Below are positions 5,477 to 12,289 of a stretch of 64,000 nucleotides of DNA, piece by piece. How positions within the stretch are numbered: the first letter of the stretch is position 1; every line of letters starts with the position of its first letter. A model generated the notes under the pieces. The model saw only the letters and a program-made list of their open reading frames with translations. It was not told where the DNA came from and did no database searches. Source of the DNA: an uncultured Gemmatimonadota bacterium (lineage in GTDB: Bacteria; Gemmatimonadota; Gemmatimonadetes; Gemmatimonadales; Gemmatimonadaceae); the NCBI GenBank assembly GCA_903882745.1, contig CAIRYG010000010.1, positions 186,001-250,000 on the forward strand. Reading direction: 5' to 3'. A program made the translations under genes and the position numbers.

Positions 5477-7884
5477 GCGATCTCCACGATGGTCACGCCC
5501 GCTCCCCCTTCGTTCCACGCACCCATTCGCGACGCTTTGACACGACGGTCAGTCTTCAGCAACATGGTCACCCGTTCACGCAACGCACCCGTTCCCTTGC
5601 CATGAATAATGCGAATCGCACTCAAGTCCGCGCGCACCGCATCATCCACCGCCTGAAGCACGGCGTCATCGACGTCCATCACACGCATCCCGCGGAGATC
5701 CACCTCGGTGCGAACCACCACATCGGGCTGATCGCCGATCAGTGGGATCGCCTTCTCAACGGGCTCGCGCTTTCGGCGTGAGACTACGCGTAACGTGGCG
5801 ACCGGCACCGAAATCTTCATCGCCCCAACCATGACGGTGGCTTCGCCATTTCGGACGCCGATCACCTCACCCGCCTTTCCACCAAGCGACGACACGCTCA
5901 CGGTCGCGCCGACCACTACGTCACCCAGCGCGGACGCCGCATCCCGCTCCGCGACCTGTGTCCCATCGAGCGTTGCAATCGCTGCCGCCTGCGCGGCTGC
6001 CTCGCGCTCCACGGCGCGTCGGATCTCGAGTGCGGCGGCGTCGAGCTGCTGCATCCCCGCGTCACGCCCCGCATCGCGCAACTGTTTGATCAACCGTTCG
6101 ATTTCCTGCCGCGCGTCCAAGACGTGGCGCCGCGCTTCTTGGCGCGCCGACCGTTCCAGCTCGCGTTCTTTCTCCTTCACCTCGCGCTCTCGCGTGCTCA
6201 CCTGCTCCGCGCGCTCCGACATGGCCTCCGCACGAGCGGCGACGTCGCGCTCGCGCTCGACAAGCGACTCCTGACGCGCTTCGAGGTCCTCAAGCAGCGC
6301 CGCAACATCACGCTCGCCGATTGGCACGCGCTGCTCGGCACGCGTGAGCACCGACTCTGGCAACGCAAGTCGGCGCGCAATGCTAATACCGTACGAGCGT
6401 CCTGGAATCCCCTTGATGAGCCGGTAGGTGGGCGCGAGTCGAACCGCGTCAAACTGCAGCGACGCATTCACCACTCCAGGCACCTCCTGCGCCAGCTCCT
6501 TGAGTGCTCCCAAATGCGTGGTCGCAATCGTAAAGGTCCCGCGACGGGTGAGTTCCTCGAGAATCGCGCCGCCCAACGCCGCGCCCTCAACAGGATCAGT
6601 TCCCGACCCAAGCTCGTCAATCAACACGAGCGACGCCGCCGTTGCCTCACGGAGAATCTCCCCGAGGTTCCGCAAATGAGCACTGAATGTCGACAGCGAT
6701 GCGGCAATCGATTGCTCGTCACCAATATCACCAAAGAATCGATCGAAAATCGGCACACGACTCTCAGGCCCCACCGGCGCCGGGATTCCGGACTGCACGA
6801 GTAGGGACAGCAGCGCCATGGCCTTGAGCAGCACGGTCTTTCCGCCGGTATTCGGCCCGGAGACGAGCAGGGTGCGCTCCCCTGGCTCCATCACCAAATC
6901 GAACGGTACCACGGAGCCCGCATCACGGGCCAGCAGCAACGGATGCCGTCCGGCATGCACGGCAAAACCATCACCTACCAGTGCAAGCCCTGGCCGAGTG
7001 CCGCCGTGACTACGAGCGTACCGAGCGCGCGCGGCTAACGCGTCGAGTTCGGTCAACGCGACGAGCGCGCCCATCAAGGCGTCGCGCTCCGGGCGCAGTG
7101 TGTCGGTGACCTCGAGCAGCACGCGATGCACCTCGCGCATCTCCTCCGCTTCTAACTCGCGAATCCGGTTCCCCGCCTCCACCGCTGCCGGCGGCTCAAC
7201 GAACACCGTTGCGCCACTCGCCGATGTGTCGTGCACGATTCCACCCACGGCGCCCCGCCCCTCGCGGCGGACGGGAATCACATAGCGACCATTCCGGAGC
7301 GAGACCGACGCGTCGTCCACCCGATGGTGCGTCTCAAGCTTGGCCATGAGCCGCTCAAGCATGCGCACCAAATCGCCTTCGGCGCCACGCAACTCGCGCC
7401 GTACCTTCCGGAGCGCGGGGGACGCATCGTCGCGGACGACCCCTTCCTCATTGACCACGCGGTCTAAATCGCGCTCAATCTGCGGCGCATGCACGAGGGC
7501 ATCGATGATGCTTGTGAGCGACGCCACCAGATGCGCGTCGCGCTGCGGCTGGCGCAGGACATCCCGCGACCGGCGCGAGGCCCCGAGCAGGGTGTGCGCG
7601 AGTCGGAGCTCTGGGCCAGTCCACGCGGTCCCTGGGACGCGCAGTCGTGCGAGCGGCGCATCCAGCTCCGGGACTAACTCCGGCGCGAACCCACCATCCT
7701 CGTCCATCAGCCGACGGATCGCATCCACCTGATCGAGCGCGTGGTCAATCGCCGCCGCGTCCGTCATCGGCGTCAACGCGCGGACGCGACGCGCACCAGC
7801 CGGACTGCCCGCATGTCCGGCGACCATGTCGAGCGCTGCACCGAACTCGAGGACGGTGAGCGCGTGGTCGCTGCCGATGCTCAC
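5473..7884 (-). CDS. mutS2: Endonuclease MutS2
   Basis: A MutS-family ATPase without the mismatch-recognition domain, 803 residues. MutS2 proteins act in recombination control, and in some bacteria in rescue of collided ribosomes. Visible parts are the core/lever region, Walker A SGPNTGGKT near residue 340, the Walker B segment LIDELGSGTDP, and the ATTHLGALK switch. A long charged coiled coil (roughly 520-640) follows, then a C-terminal Smr nuclease domain with DLRGM and the HGKGTGALR motif. The GTG start overlaps the yqeY stop, and its stop overlaps dnaG ATG. Confidence 0.96.
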   Translation of the reverse strand: MSIGSDHALTVLEFGAALDMVAGHAGSPAGARRVRALTPMTDAAAIDHALDQVDAIRRLMDEDGGFAPELVPELDAPLARLRVPGTAWTGPELRLAHTLLGASRRSRDVLRQPQRDAHLVASLTSIIDALVHAPQIERDLDRVVNEEGVVRDDASPALRKVRRELRGAEGDLVRMLERLMAKLETHHRVDDASVSLRNGRYVIPVRREGRGAVGGIVHDTSASGATVFVEPPAAVEAGNRIRELEAEEMREVHRVLLEVTDTLRPERDALMGALVALTELDALAARARYARSHGGTRPGLALVGDGFAVHAGRHPLLLARDAGSVVPFDLVMEPGERTLLVSGPNTGGKTVLLKAMALLSLLVQSGIPAPVGPESRVPIFDRFFGDIGDEQSIAASLSTFSAHLRNLGEILREATAASLVLIDELGSGTDPVEGAALGGAILEELTRRGTFTIATTHLGALKELAQEVPGVVNASLQFDAVRLAPTYRLIKGIPGRSYGISIARRLALPESVLTRAEQRVPIGERDVAALLEDLEARQESLVERERDVAARAEAMSERAEQVSTREREVKEKERELERSARQEARRHVLDARQEIERLIKQLRDAGRDAGMQQLDAAALEIRRAVEREAAAQAAAIATLDGTQVAERDAASALGDVVVGATVSVSSLGGKAGEVIGVRNGEATVMVGAMKISVPVATLRVVSRRKREPVEKAIPLIGDQPDVVVRTEVDLRGMRVMDVDDAVLQAVDDAVRADLSAIRIIHGKGTGALRERVTMLLKTDRRVKASRMGAWNEGGAGVTIVEIA

Positions 7885-8324
7885 GCGGTCGGGCCCAGCT
7901 CCTCTCGGGCGACGCGGTTGATCACGCCACCGTCGATGCGTCCCTTGAACTGCGGCATCACCTTCCCCATCACTACGCCGACATTCGCTGCACCGGCGGC
8001 TATAGCGGCCTTGACCGCCGCACGCACATCGTCCTCACTGGCCTCCGGCGGAAGAAACCGCGTCAGCATCGCCGCCTCATCGCGCTCCTGCGCGGCAAGC
8101 TCCGCGCGGCCACCCTTTTCGTACGCGTCCTGCGACTCTCGGCGGCGCTTGATCCCCTTCCGGAGCACGTCCACGACATCCGCTTCGGTCAGGTCGCGCT
8201 TTGCGGCAATGTGGGCGTTTTCAATGTCGGCGAGGATCGTGCCGAGCAGGAGCAAGGCCGGCTTCTGCTGAGCCTTGCGGGCTGCGGTCAGTTCGGCGCG
8301 GAGTTGTTCGTGGAGCGAAGCCAT
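7881..8324 (-). CDS. GatB/YqeY domain protein
   Basis: A 147-residue YqeY-like protein related to the tRNA-binding tail domain of GatB, of uncertain function. Family features are the KRRRESQDAYEKGGR segment, the LTRFLPPEASEDD motif and the GKVMPQFKGRIDGGVIN C-terminus. YqeY neighbours dnaG in many bacteria, usually with rpsU. The ATG at 8324 is preferred over a GTG three codons upstream. It heads the run continuing into mutS2, with start and stop overlapping. Confidence 0.93.
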   Translation of the reverse strand: MASLHEQLRAELTAARKAQQKPALLLLGTILADIENAHIAAKRDLTEADVVDVLRKGIKRRRESQDAYEKGGRAELAAQERDEAAMLTRFLPPEASEDDVRAAVKAAIAAGAANVGVVMGKVMPQFKGRIDGGVINRVAREELGPTA

Positions 8325-8452
8325 TTCAGTCACCGGCTGGGAGGACGAGAGCCCTTCAAGTTACGGCCTGCGTGGCCCTTCGGGCAAGCTTCGGGAGAGG
8401 CGACCCGTGGGTACGAGCTCCCCGCCAACGGGCTAGATTTCACCACCAACCG

Positions 8453-11400
8453 ATGAGCGAACACCCGAACCGATCCGTCTTCCTCGACCCCAGCGGCAAA
8501 CGCTGGCGGAGGATTCAGCGCGTCTCGCTCGCCCTGGGCGTGCTGACAACGCTCTTTGGGCTTGGCATCGCCATCAGTTTTCTGATTCCCCCAATCCTCC
8601 CGAAACTCCAAGACGCGCGCGCTCAGGTGCGAGCCGCCGCGCAGCCGTCGCAGTTGAAGACAAGCCGTCGCGAACGCGAAAAAACCGCAGCGCAGCGCCG
8701 CCTCGAAACCGCACTCAGCAGATACGTCCATCCCCCCGCGATGCGGCCGAGCCAGTTACCGATCGAGCGCAATCGAAAGATCGAGGGTGCGACCAGCAAG
8801 CGCGCGGTGAGCATGAACAGCGATCGCCCCGGGATTGTGGCAGGCTTTTTTGTCAACTGGGACGACAACTCGCGCACCTCGCTCAACGCCCACATTCGCG
8901 ATCTCGACTGGGTGGTCGGCGAGTGGTTCTTCATCAACCCCAACGGCACACGATTCGACGACCGCACCGACGCCCGGGCACTCTACACCATTGAGCAGGA
9001 GTCACCAAAGAACCGCCCGAAACTGATGGCCATGGTCAGCAACTTCGACCGCGGCACGCAAAAGTTTCACGCCGAGGCATTGCGCAAGTTGATCGCCACG
9101 CCGCGATCGCGAGAGTCTGCCGCCCTGCAACTGGTCAACGCCTGCATCAAGTACGGGTTTGCCGGCGTCACGTTGGATTTCGAAGAAGTCCCGGACGACC
9201 TGATGCCGTCCGTGATTGCCTTTTCGCGCATCCTGCGCGCGGCACTCGCTCCAGGTGGACGCGTCCTCTCCAGCGCCCTTCCCGTCAGCACCGACGAAGA
9301 AACCGCCCGACAGTTCGCCGCGACCAACGATTATTTGTTCCTCATGCTCTACGATGAGCATTACGGACGTGGGGACCCCGGCCCCGTGGCGAGTCAGCGC
9401 TGGTTCGAGGACCGCCTGGATCAGTTCCTCAAATGGATCCCCCCGGGGAAGGTGATTGTGACGCTCGGTGCCTACGGCTACGAGTGGAACGACGCCGACA
9501 ACAAGGTGAATGGCTCCACGGTCACCTTCCAAGACGTCATGCGGCTGTCGAAAGAGCACAACGCGACCGTGCGCTTCGACTCAACCATGCTCAACCCCTT
9601 CGTCACCTGGTCCGACAGCGATGGCACGGACCACGTGTCCTGGTTCCTCGACGGTGTGACCGCATGGAATCAGTCGAAAGCGGCAGTGCAGCGAAAAATT
9701 GCGGGCGCCGCCGTGTGGCGCCTCGGTTCTGAAGATCCATCGATCTGGGGCGCCATCTCAAACGACATTCCACGCTCGGATCCGTCGATGCTGGCCGAGA
9801 TCCCCGCAGGATACGACCCCGAAATCCTCGGTGACGGCGAGCTGCTGCGGCTCTCGAGCCGGCCGGTCACGGGCCGCCGGACCCTGTCGGCGTCGCCACG
9901 CAGCGGGCTCATCGAGCACGAGAGCGTGCTCGCCTTCCCCGCACCATGGCGCGTGCAGCGATTCGGTGGCGAGGATACCACAAAGGTCGCCATCACCTTC
10001 GACGACGGTCCCGACCCGCGCTTCACCGGCGCGATCCTCGATACGCTCCGTTCACGGAACGCGAAAGCCACCTTCTTCGTTGTCGGTCGCCAAGTCGACG
10101 GCTACCCCGCACTGCTCCGGCGCATTCTGCGTGAAGGACACGAGATTGGAAGCCATACCTACACGCATCCCAATCTCGCGCTGACGAATCCATTTCTCGC
10201 AAAACTGGAGCTCGTGGCGTCAGGACGGTTGATCGAGAGCATCTTAAACCGCCGCACCGCGCTGTTTCGACCGCCCTATTTCGGAGACGCGGAACCCACG
10301 ACCGCCGACGAGCTCATCCCTGTTGGCATCGCCACCGACCTCGGGTACCTCACAGTTGGCGTGCACATCGACAGCGAGGACTGGCGGCTCACCGATCCGC
10401 AGGCGGTCTACGATACCACCATGATGCGGCTCGACAAGGGCAACATTCTGCTGCTGCACGACTCCGGCGGCGACCGCAGAGCGACCGTTGCGATTCTTGG
10501 CACGCTGATCGACTCCATGCGCGCGCATGGACGCGAGCCGGTCCTCGTCTCTGAGCTCGCGGGCATCTCGCGCGACGAAGCAATGCCCCAGCTCTCGACG
10601 CACACCACGCTCGAGCGCGTCGTCGAAATCGTAGCCTTCACGGCCGTCGGACTGATGGACTGGGGTGTCTACTGGATTTTCCTGATCGCCGTCATCGCCG
10701 GGGTCATTCGCCTCGCCTTTATTCTCGTCCTAGCCGTGATGCAGCGTCGGAAGGCGCTTGCCCAACAGGCCGCGACCGATACCGCGCCACGATTCGCCCC
10801 GCCGGTTACGATCATCGTCCCCGCCTACAACGAAGGGATGGTGATTGCACGCACGGTACAGAGCCTGCTCGACCAACAATACGACGGGGACCTGCGCATT
10901 ATCGTCGTGGACGACGGCTCGCCAGATGACACCTTCGCCATCGCGCGCGACCGGTTCGCGAACGATCCGCGTGTCGACGTGCACACACAACCCAACGCCG
11001 GCAAAGCGGCAGCGCTCAATTTCGGCATTGCGCGTGCGTCGACCGATATCATCATCTGCCTCGACGCTGACACGCTGTTCGAACGCACAACGGTCCGCGA
11101 ACTCGTCCAACCACTCCACAACCCAACGGTTGGAGCGGTTGCCGGCAATGCCAAGGTTGGCAACCGCATCAACCTCGTGACCCGGTGGCAGGCGCTCGAG
11201 TACGTGACCTCACAGAATCTGGATCGACGCGCCTTCTCGATCCTGAACTGCATCACGGTCATTCCCGGCGCGGTCGGCGCCTGGCGCCGCTCCGCCGTCA
11301 TCGAGGCCGGCGGCTTCACCAGCGACACGCTCGCCGAGGATCAGGACCTCACGATTCGCATTCGGCGCCTCGGCATGACCATCGCCTACGCCGAACGGGC

Positions 11401-11917
11401 GATCGCCTGGACCGAAGCCCCAGCAGACCTCTCCTCCCTGTCCAAGCAACGCTTCCGGTGGTCCTTCGGCACGCTGCAGTGCGCGTGGAAACACCGCGAC
11501 ACGATGCTGCGACCCAAGTATGGCTCGCTCGGACTCGTCGCGATGCCGAACACGTGGCTATTCCAGCTGCTCCTGACGGCGCTGTCACCGCTGGCCGACC
11601 TGCTCTTCGTCTACGGCCTGGTCTCGGTGTGGCTCACCTGGACGGACCATGGCGCGGGCTATGCGCTCTCCGATCTCGAGAACCTGCTCGCCTTCTACGC
11701 CATCTTCCTACTCAGCGACTGGCTCGGCGCCTTCATCGCCTTCCTCATGGAACCCGACGAACAGCGCGGACTCTCGTGGCTCATCATCCTCCAACGCTTC
11801 GTCTACCGGCAGATTATGTACTCGGTGGTCGTGCGAAGCTTCTTCGCCGCGATTCGCGGACGCGTGGTTGGATGGGGATCTCTCGAACGGAAAGCCACCG
11901 CCGAAATCGGCGTGTAG
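8453..11917 (+). CDS. Fused GH18-like glycosidase / NodB polysaccharide deacetylase / GT2 synthase
   Basis: A single 1154-residue chain with three catalytic modules. A transmembrane helix at about 24-47 is followed by a GH18-like domain with GVTLDFEEVPD near 240-250. A NodB/CE4 deacetylase at about 508-720 shows TFDDGPD, HTYTHP, the RPPYF motif and LLLHDSGGD. One or two membrane helices lie at 723-764. The GT2 domain shows IIVPAYNEG near 786, LDADT near 870, EDQD near 962 and QRFRW near 998, then further membrane helices. GT2 motifs resemble processive PgaC/IcaA, chitin and hyaluronan synthases. I infer synthesis, export and trimming of a beta-linked GlcNAc-type polymer, with the first two domains outside the inner membrane. 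The start at 8453 discards 84 unsupported codons antisense to yqeY. Confidence 0.9.
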   Translation: MSEHPNRSVFLDPSGKRWRRIQRVSLALGVLTTLFGLGIAISFLIPPILPKLQDARAQVRAAAQPSQLKTSRREREKTAAQRRLETALSRYVHPPAMRPSQLPIERNRKIEGATSKRAVSMNSDRPGIVAGFFVNWDDNSRTSLNAHIRDLDWVVGEWFFINPNGTRFDDRTDARALYTIEQESPKNRPKLMAMVSNFDRGTQKFHAEALRKLIATPRSRESAALQLVNACIKYGFAGVTLDFEEVPDDLMPSVIAFSRILRAALAPGGRVLSSALPVSTDEETARQFAATNDYLFLMLYDEHYGRGDPGPVASQRWFEDRLDQFLKWIPPGKVIVTLGAYGYEWNDADNKVNGSTVTFQDVMRLSKEHNATVRFDSTMLNPFVTWSDSDGTDHVSWFLDGVTAWNQSKAAVQRKIAGAAVWRLGSEDPSIWGAISNDIPRSDPSMLAEIPAGYDPEILGDGELLRLSSRPVTGRRTLSASPRSGLIEHESVLAFPAPWRVQRFGGEDTTKVAITFDDGPDPRFTGAILDTLRSRNAKATFFVVGRQVDGYPALLRRILREGHEIGSHTYTHPNLALTNPFLAKLELVASGRLIESILNRRTALFRPPYFGDAEPTTADELIPVGIATDLGYLTVGVHIDSEDWRLTDPQAVYDTTMMRLDKGNILLLHDSGGDRRATVAILGTLIDSMRAHGREPVLVSELAGISRDEAMPQLSTHTTLERVVEIVAFTAVGLMDWGVYWIFLIAVIAGVIRLAFILVLAVMQRRKALAQQAATDTAPRFAPPVTIIVPAYNEGMVIARTVQSLLDQQYDGDLRIIVVDDGSPDDTFAIARDRFANDPRVDVHTQPNAGKAAALNFGIARASTDIIICLDADTLFERTTVRELVQPLHNPTVGAVAGNAKVGNRINLVTRWQALEYVTSQNLDRRAFSILNCITVIPGAVGAWRRSAVIEAGGFTSDTLAEDQDLTIRIRRLGMTIAYAERAIAWTEAPADLSSLSKQRFRWSFGTLQCAWKHRDTMLRPKYGSLGLVAMPNTWLFQLLLTALSPLADLLFVYGLVSVWLTWTDHGAGYALSDLENLLAFYAIFLLSDWLGAFIAFLMEPDEQRGLSWLIILQRFVYRQIMYSVVVRSFFAAIRGRVVGWGSLERKATAEIGV

Positions 11918-11947: not shown

Positions 11948-12289
11948 TCAGCCCGGAGGCCAGCGCAGCGCGCGGCCGCCCAGCACATGCAGATGCACGT
12001 GGGCCACACTCTGACCACCGTCATCGTTGGTGTTGACGACCACGCGATAGCCGCTCTCCGCAACCCCCTCCTGCTGCGCTACGTCCCGCGCGAGCGCGAG
12101 CAGATCTGCGAGCACGCTGGGTGACGAGACGTCGTTCAGCGACGAGGCGTGCACACGCGGAATCACCAAGACATGCACCGGCGCCTGCGGCGCAATGTCA
12201 CGAAAGGCCAAGCAGCTTTCGCGTTCGGCAACGATCGCCGCAGGAATCTCTCCCGAGGCGATTCGACAGAACAAACAGGGTGCGCTCAT
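11948..12289 (-). CDS. HIT family (histidine triad) nucleotide-binding protein
   Basis: A 113-residue HIT protein of the Hint/HinT group, likely a purine nucleoside phosphoramidase or related nucleotide hydrolase. The C-terminal histidine triad HVHLHVLGG is intact, and the N-terminal CLFCRIASGEIPA is typical of bacterial HinT. It lies 15 bp downstream of rsmE and is probably the last gene of the hemW-hrcA-dnaJ-prmA-rsmE run. It converges with the plus-strand fused synthase across a 30-bp gap. Confidence 0.95.
   Translation of the reverse strand: MSAPCLFCRIASGEIPAAIVAERESCLAFRDIAPQAPVHVLVIPRVHASSLNDVSSPSVLADLLALARDVAQQEGVAESGYRVVVNTNDDGGQSVAHVHLHVLGGRALRWPPG

Follow-up and report, generated by a model that had tools for sequence, protein, structure and literature searches.

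In Streptomyces, the MatB protein carries an extracellular CE4 domain, one transmembrane helix and an intracellular GT2 domain, and an F598-reactive PNAG layer that is sensitive to dispersin B depends on MatAB (PMC5972031). The matAB mutant retained β-1,4-glycan staining, and MatAB is tied to β-1,6 PNAG (PMC5972031). Fusions of a glycosyltransferase to a deacetylase in Gram-negative bacteria without pgaA and pgaD are noted in the sections of Bundalovic-Torma et al. (2020) drawn on here, and those sections suggest that the deacetylase of such fusions acts at the inner membrane (PMC7112194). In Clostridioides difficile, the HexSDF–HexRK system unites a glycosyltransferase and a polysaccharide deacetylase with an MprF-like flippase and a two-component system, and gives rise to an aminohexosyl glycolipid (PMC10128005). 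Two periplasmic enzymes, AcvB and VirJ, hydrolyse lysyl-PG, and the former binds LpiA (PMC13197417, PMC13135905).

The gene described here combines GH18, CE4 and GT2 domains and lies in the window, by which we mean the whole 64,000-nucleotide stretch of Gemmatimonadota DNA that was analysed. It occupies positions 8453..11917 of the forward strand, as an ATG-initiated open reading frame of 1154 codons for amino acids. A longer frame from a TTG at 8201 was rejected, as it overlaps yqeY and the homologs begin where the ATG does. The nearest relative from another genome is 88% identical over its full length, and many genomes conserve the frame throughout, with no internal stops in the full-length homologs listed; being stop-free and so widely conserved, it is neither a chance reading frame nor an assembly chimera. 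Within the window the fusion gene stands alone, between a divergent YqeY-like gene upstream (7881..8333, reverse strand), which is common to close relatives and lies outside the system, and a HIT-domain gene downstream (11948..12289, reverse strand).

The preliminary description had placed GH18-like, NodB and processive GT2 modules in one 1154-residue chain, and all three were recovered by Pfam above their cut-offs in this single conserved frame (all coordinates that follow are on the forward strand). The GH18 domain (8837..9727, residues 129–425; PF00704, 5.5e-12, 46.4 bits against a cut-off of 29.6) is of the YdhD/SleL/YaaH type, and its above-threshold profile is accompanied by the catalytic D-x-E, here D-F-E at 9176..9184 (residues 242–244). 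In the CE4/NodB deacetylase domain (9974..10561, residues 508–703), Polysacc_deac_1 (PF01522) matches residues 509–609 at 3.8e-29 and 101.6 bits against a cut-off of 23.1, homology to solved CE4 enzymes extends to about residue 703, and all five motifs, metal-binding and catalytic, are intact. The GT2 domain (10799..11470, residues 783–1006; PF00535/PF13641, E-values down to 1.6e-32, above cut-off) has the DxD motif, the (T/A)ED motif as AED, the Q-x-x-R-W motif as QRFRW, which is typical of processive GT2 enzymes, and the accompanying membrane helices. An alignment of 39 homologs found the catalytic residues intact in all three modules, with no substitution in the window protein: D242 and E244 of GH18 and D517, D518, H568, H572, R606, D640, D643, W644 and H669 of CE4 are invariant, and D821, D871, D873, E962, D963 and Q999-R-x-R-W1003 of GT2 are invariant in every non-truncated row. 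Judged from these residues, the chain carries three apparently active domains.

The structure of the fusion protein was examined as an AlphaFold2 model (mean pLDDT 82, pTM 0.61), in which a helix at residues 16–44 is followed by a low-confidence linker (51–124), GH18, CE4, a helix at 716–775, GT2 and membrane helices from residue 1025. The first of these is the N-terminal transmembrane helix (8498..8584), ahead of which lies a conserved cytoplasmic VFxDPSGxRW motif; the helix between CE4 and GT2 (10625..10732, residues ~725–760) is modelled as the single long helix 716–775; and the C-terminal membrane helices span 11540..11752 (residues ~1030–1100). GH18 and CE4 are predicted to lie outside the inner membrane, in the loop that connects the first two helices of the synthase, and GT2 on its inner side. 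Positive-inside flanks agree, with a net charge of +3.3 before the first helix, +3.0 after the second, +3.0 after GT2 and only +0.2 before the second helix; a mildly positive flank also follows the first helix (+1.7), so the charge bias is support for the topology rather than proof. The earlier proposal that the first two modules face the periplasm and GT2 the cytoplasm is consistent with both model and charges, and no topology with all domains on one side was seen.

Foldseek searches with parts of the model matched GH18 to SleL and a chitinase, CE4 to the Bacillus cereus deacetylase Bc1960, and the GT2–membrane part to Chlorella virus hyaluronan synthase. That the best solved relatives of GH18 and CE4 include cortex-lytic SleL and peptidoglycan GlcNAc deacetylases would suit a role in peptidoglycan modification, with both ectodomains acting on peptidoglycan and GT2 making a wall-linked glycan. 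We regard such a role as very improbable: fusion to a processive synthase and placement in the loop from transmembrane helix 1 to helix 2 tie both ectodomains to the synthase exit, and Pfam detected no peptidoglycan-binding domain in the fusion protein.

Among the HMMs for polymer synthases, the best match of GT2 was PgaC/IcaA (178 bits; NodC, 117), and GT2 has ~36% identity to Escherichia coli PgaC across 242 residues and 33% to NodC across 274. The likeness to PgaB plus PgaC drawn in the preliminary description stands to that extent, but the score of 178.4 bits is far under the cut-off of 422.3 for the PgaC/IcaA equivalog TIGR03937. Its wider implication, a Pga-type system, was rejected: the hydrolase of PgaB is a GHL13 and that of the window protein a GH18 of YdhD/SleL/YaaH type, and the PgaA barrel, PgaD and a PgaB-type GHL13 were all absent from the window’s genome, in searches that found all of them in the E. 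coli positive control. No outer-membrane exporter was identified in that genome, so that the self-contained machine suggested in the preliminary description is no more than a possibility. A Streptomyces MatB-like protein, by comparison, has 43% identity to the window protein over GT2 and 42% over CE4, with the same order of CE4, one transmembrane helix and GT2. Because of this order and similarity, and of the absence of Pga parts, we favour the reading that the fusion is an inner-membrane, MatB-type poly-GlcNAc synthase (CE4–TM–GT2) with periplasmic finishing enzymes and an added GH18, and hold it to be moderately probable.

Under the MatB-type reading, the cytoplasmic GT2 would polymerise GlcNAc from UDP-GlcNAc and thread the chain through its own membrane helices, as its family and motifs suggest. 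CE4, in the periplasmic loop, would strip N-acetyl groups and so render the polymer cationic, in keeping with its intact motifs, and GH18, in the same loop, would cut the chain, either setting its length or releasing it. The product would be partly de-N-acetylated poly-GlcNAc. Polymer synthesis is the likely mechanism; the shortfall of GT2 against the equivalog cut-off and the lack of a PgaA-like exporter in the genome count against this reading.

The linkage could be β-1,6, as GT2 is nearest PgaC and MatB, or β-1,4, as GH18 and CE4 are nearest enzymes of chitin and peptidoglycan. The relatives of GH18 and CE4 act on β-1,4-linked GlcNAc, a poor fit with β-1,6 PNAG. The product may instead be a chitosan-like β-1,4 oligomer or polymer, the single chain acting as a NodC/NodB-like pathway in which GH18 sets the product length. 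For CE4, the closest matches are NodB-type models and the deacetylases of peptidoglycan and chitin; for GH18, they are SleL/YdhD and chitinases. All of these act on β-1,4 GlcNAc. As to the machine, this is a sub-case of the MatB-type reading, from which it differs in product. We think it possible but doubtful, as GT2 scores higher with PgaC/IcaA than with NodC, and as the CE4 of MatB is also β-1,4-like, yet MatAB is tied to β-1,6 PNAG and its loss leaves β-1,4-glycan staining in place (PMC5972031).

The GH18–CE4–GT2 fusion is real but not unique to this genome. It was present in 58 of 298 sampled Gemmatimonadota genomes, representing 28 of 119 genera, and near full-length matches were found in named plasmid-collection records of Deinococcus, Sphingobium, Novosphingobium, Sphingomonas and Prevotella nigrescens, with Rhodobacterales records of the same collection matching with a weaker GH18; Verrucomicrobiota also carry the fusion, on genome contigs. 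Pfam assigned GH18, CE4 and GT2 to one chain in Deinococcus, Prevotella, Sphingomonas and one member of the Verrucomicrobiota. In Sphingobium it returned no GH18 at 1e-5, yet the protein has 32% identity to the window GH18 (E 3e-49) and keeps the D-x-E. Homologs labelled as a cyanobacterium (L051) and as Moraniibacteriota (L056) are metagenome bins whose taxon may be misassigned. In the GT2 tree, which has long branches in its deep part, only close kinship among Gemmatimonadota members was supported. The survey across phyla thus placed triple fusions in Gram-negative phyla and Deinococcus; those that the preliminary description attributed to some Gram-positive bacteria did not turn up, and the relatives examined from such bacteria (Streptomyces and Kocuria) are CE4–GT2 proteins without GH18. 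The Kocuria protein shares the N-terminal F-x-D-P-S-G-K-R-W motif. We found no description of the triple fusion in the open-access literature.

Several of these loci showed further features. In Kocuria, a separate GH18-like chitinase gene adjoins the CE4–GT2 gene on the opposite strand (L075:4704-8009); we do not claim it as a split-off GH18, as a BLAST comparison with the GH18 domain of the window protein showed no similarity. In Sulfitobacter indolifex (L096:6461-9727), the aligned GH18 motif is D-A-S, not D-x-E, so that this domain looks degenerate and may be an inactive hydrolase. A DUF3131 gene directly follows the fusion gene there, as it does in Limimaricola (L095). In Deinococcus sp. 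KNUC1210 (L071:6962-12129), a gene that follows the fusion encodes a sensor diguanylate cyclase, hinting at c-di-GMP control.

In close relatives of the window locus, mprF follows the fusion gene in the same slot, with virJ next where detected (L037, L038, L041, L052, L059 and L064), and in several relatives mprF and virJ lie between the fusion gene and the HIT gene. Downstream of the gene, relatives repeatedly show clusters of antisense open reading frames (such as L052, 7388-9364, minus strand); these were dismissed as shadow frames opposite mprF. Of the 298 Gemmatimonadota genomes, 30 had both the fusion and a PF09924 match of full length, and in 14 of the 30 the two were adjacent, separated by 1.6–2.1 kb between the matched parts, mostly the N-terminal half of MprF. 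These 14 cases span six genera and two orientations, and VirJ is alongside in 13. Strong VirJ matches were found in 25 of 58 fusion-positive genomes versus 15 of 240 fusion-negative ones (Fisher p 6e-11, with no correction for kinship). In each of the four Sphingomonadaceae loci that were inspected (L072, L074, L093 and L094), virJ, mprF and a two-component system adjoin the fusion, and locus L081 carries a similar two-component system. Across Gemmatimonadota and Sphingomonadaceae, adjoining mprF, mostly with virJ/acvB, was observed at L037, L041, L072, L074, L081–L085, L093 and L094.

Two loci encode four-domain chains (L050:3595-7665 and L081:7585-11709), in which an additional hydrophobic segment and VirJ (PF06057) come after GH18–CE4–GT2; if the GT2 C-terminus is cytoplasmic, such a segment would be needed to move a periplasmic hydrolase outside, in keeping with the predicted topology. 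VirJ is fused at the synthase C-terminus in two genera, with mprF divergent alongside, and the fused VirJ retains its serine and histidine motifs. Genomes G092 and G279 have likewise VirJ-fused proteins, judged by frame length and position. The genomes of several outgroup loci (Verrucomicrobiota L062 and L066, and others) have no mprF match, so the link to mprF is frequent, not obligatory. In the window’s own genome, mprF and the fusion lie on separate contigs, and the partners are unlinked; mprF there has a weakly VirJ-like α/β hydrolase gene as its convergent neighbour (L080:6084-9635). No report of an mprF/virJ linkage of the triple fusion was found in the literature searched.

By analogy with HexSDF, the best alternative mechanism is a pathway to a cationic glycolipid, in which GT2 would add GlcNAc to a membrane lipid, CE4 would remove the acetyl group at the outer leaflet, and the linked MprF relative would flip or aminoacylate lipids. 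The recurrent linkage to mprF and virJ, and the two-component system of the Sphingomonadaceae and L081, speak for such a pathway. We nevertheless consider it unlikely. HexS is an MGDG-synthase-type enzyme, not a GT2, and HexF has no lysinylation domain, which the MprF here does have. The Q-x-x-R-W motif and hyaluronan-synthase-like membrane part of GT2 are typical of processive polymerases, it is hard to see what GH18 would do on a lipid bearing a single sugar, and MatAB is needed for a polymer (PMC5972031).

Returning to the poly-GlcNAc synthase, we infer that in many relatives the fusion, MprF and VirJ/AcvB share one cell-envelope charge programme. A more specific and tentative proposal, which we would not rate as probable, is that the fusion provides the polymer branch of a surface-charge module not described before, coupled physically and genetically to lysyl-PG synthesis by MprF and hydrolysis by VirJ/AcvB, with a shared two-component system and, in some Gemmatimonadaceae, a fused VirJ; amino acids borne by lipids might possibly be passed to the polymer.

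The fusion itself is a variant of the already known CE4–TM–GT2 layout with GH18 added, and the link to mprF and virJ is its less expected part. The recurrent linkage to aminoacyl-phospholipid enzymes, at some loci a fusion, suggests that the charge of a surface sugar polymer is coordinated with that of membrane lipids, an idea that is testable and bears on tolerance of acid and cationic peptides. The LpiA–AcvB operon of Agrobacterium and Rhizobium comprises homologs of the mprF and virJ linked to the fusion in relatives, and no polysaccharide synthase was reported alongside it in the papers searched. For the glycosyltransferase–deacetylase fusions of Bundalovic-Torma et al., which fall in divergent PgaB clades, the sections of the paper cited above describe neither a GH18 nor an mprF/virJ linkage (PMC7112194). 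Rhizobial NodB and NodC also have intact CE4 and GT2 motifs, but are separate small proteins with lower GT2 similarity and no GH18. In E. coli, PgaB and PgaC likewise bring deacetylase, hydrolase and processive GT2 to one polymer, but as separate proteins; if our reading is right, one polypeptide covers what Gram-negative PNAG systems spread over several, and offers a compact system for studying coupled synthesis, deacetylation and trimming. MatB differs in having no GH18 and a Gram-positive host and, like the window protein, needs no Pga partners.
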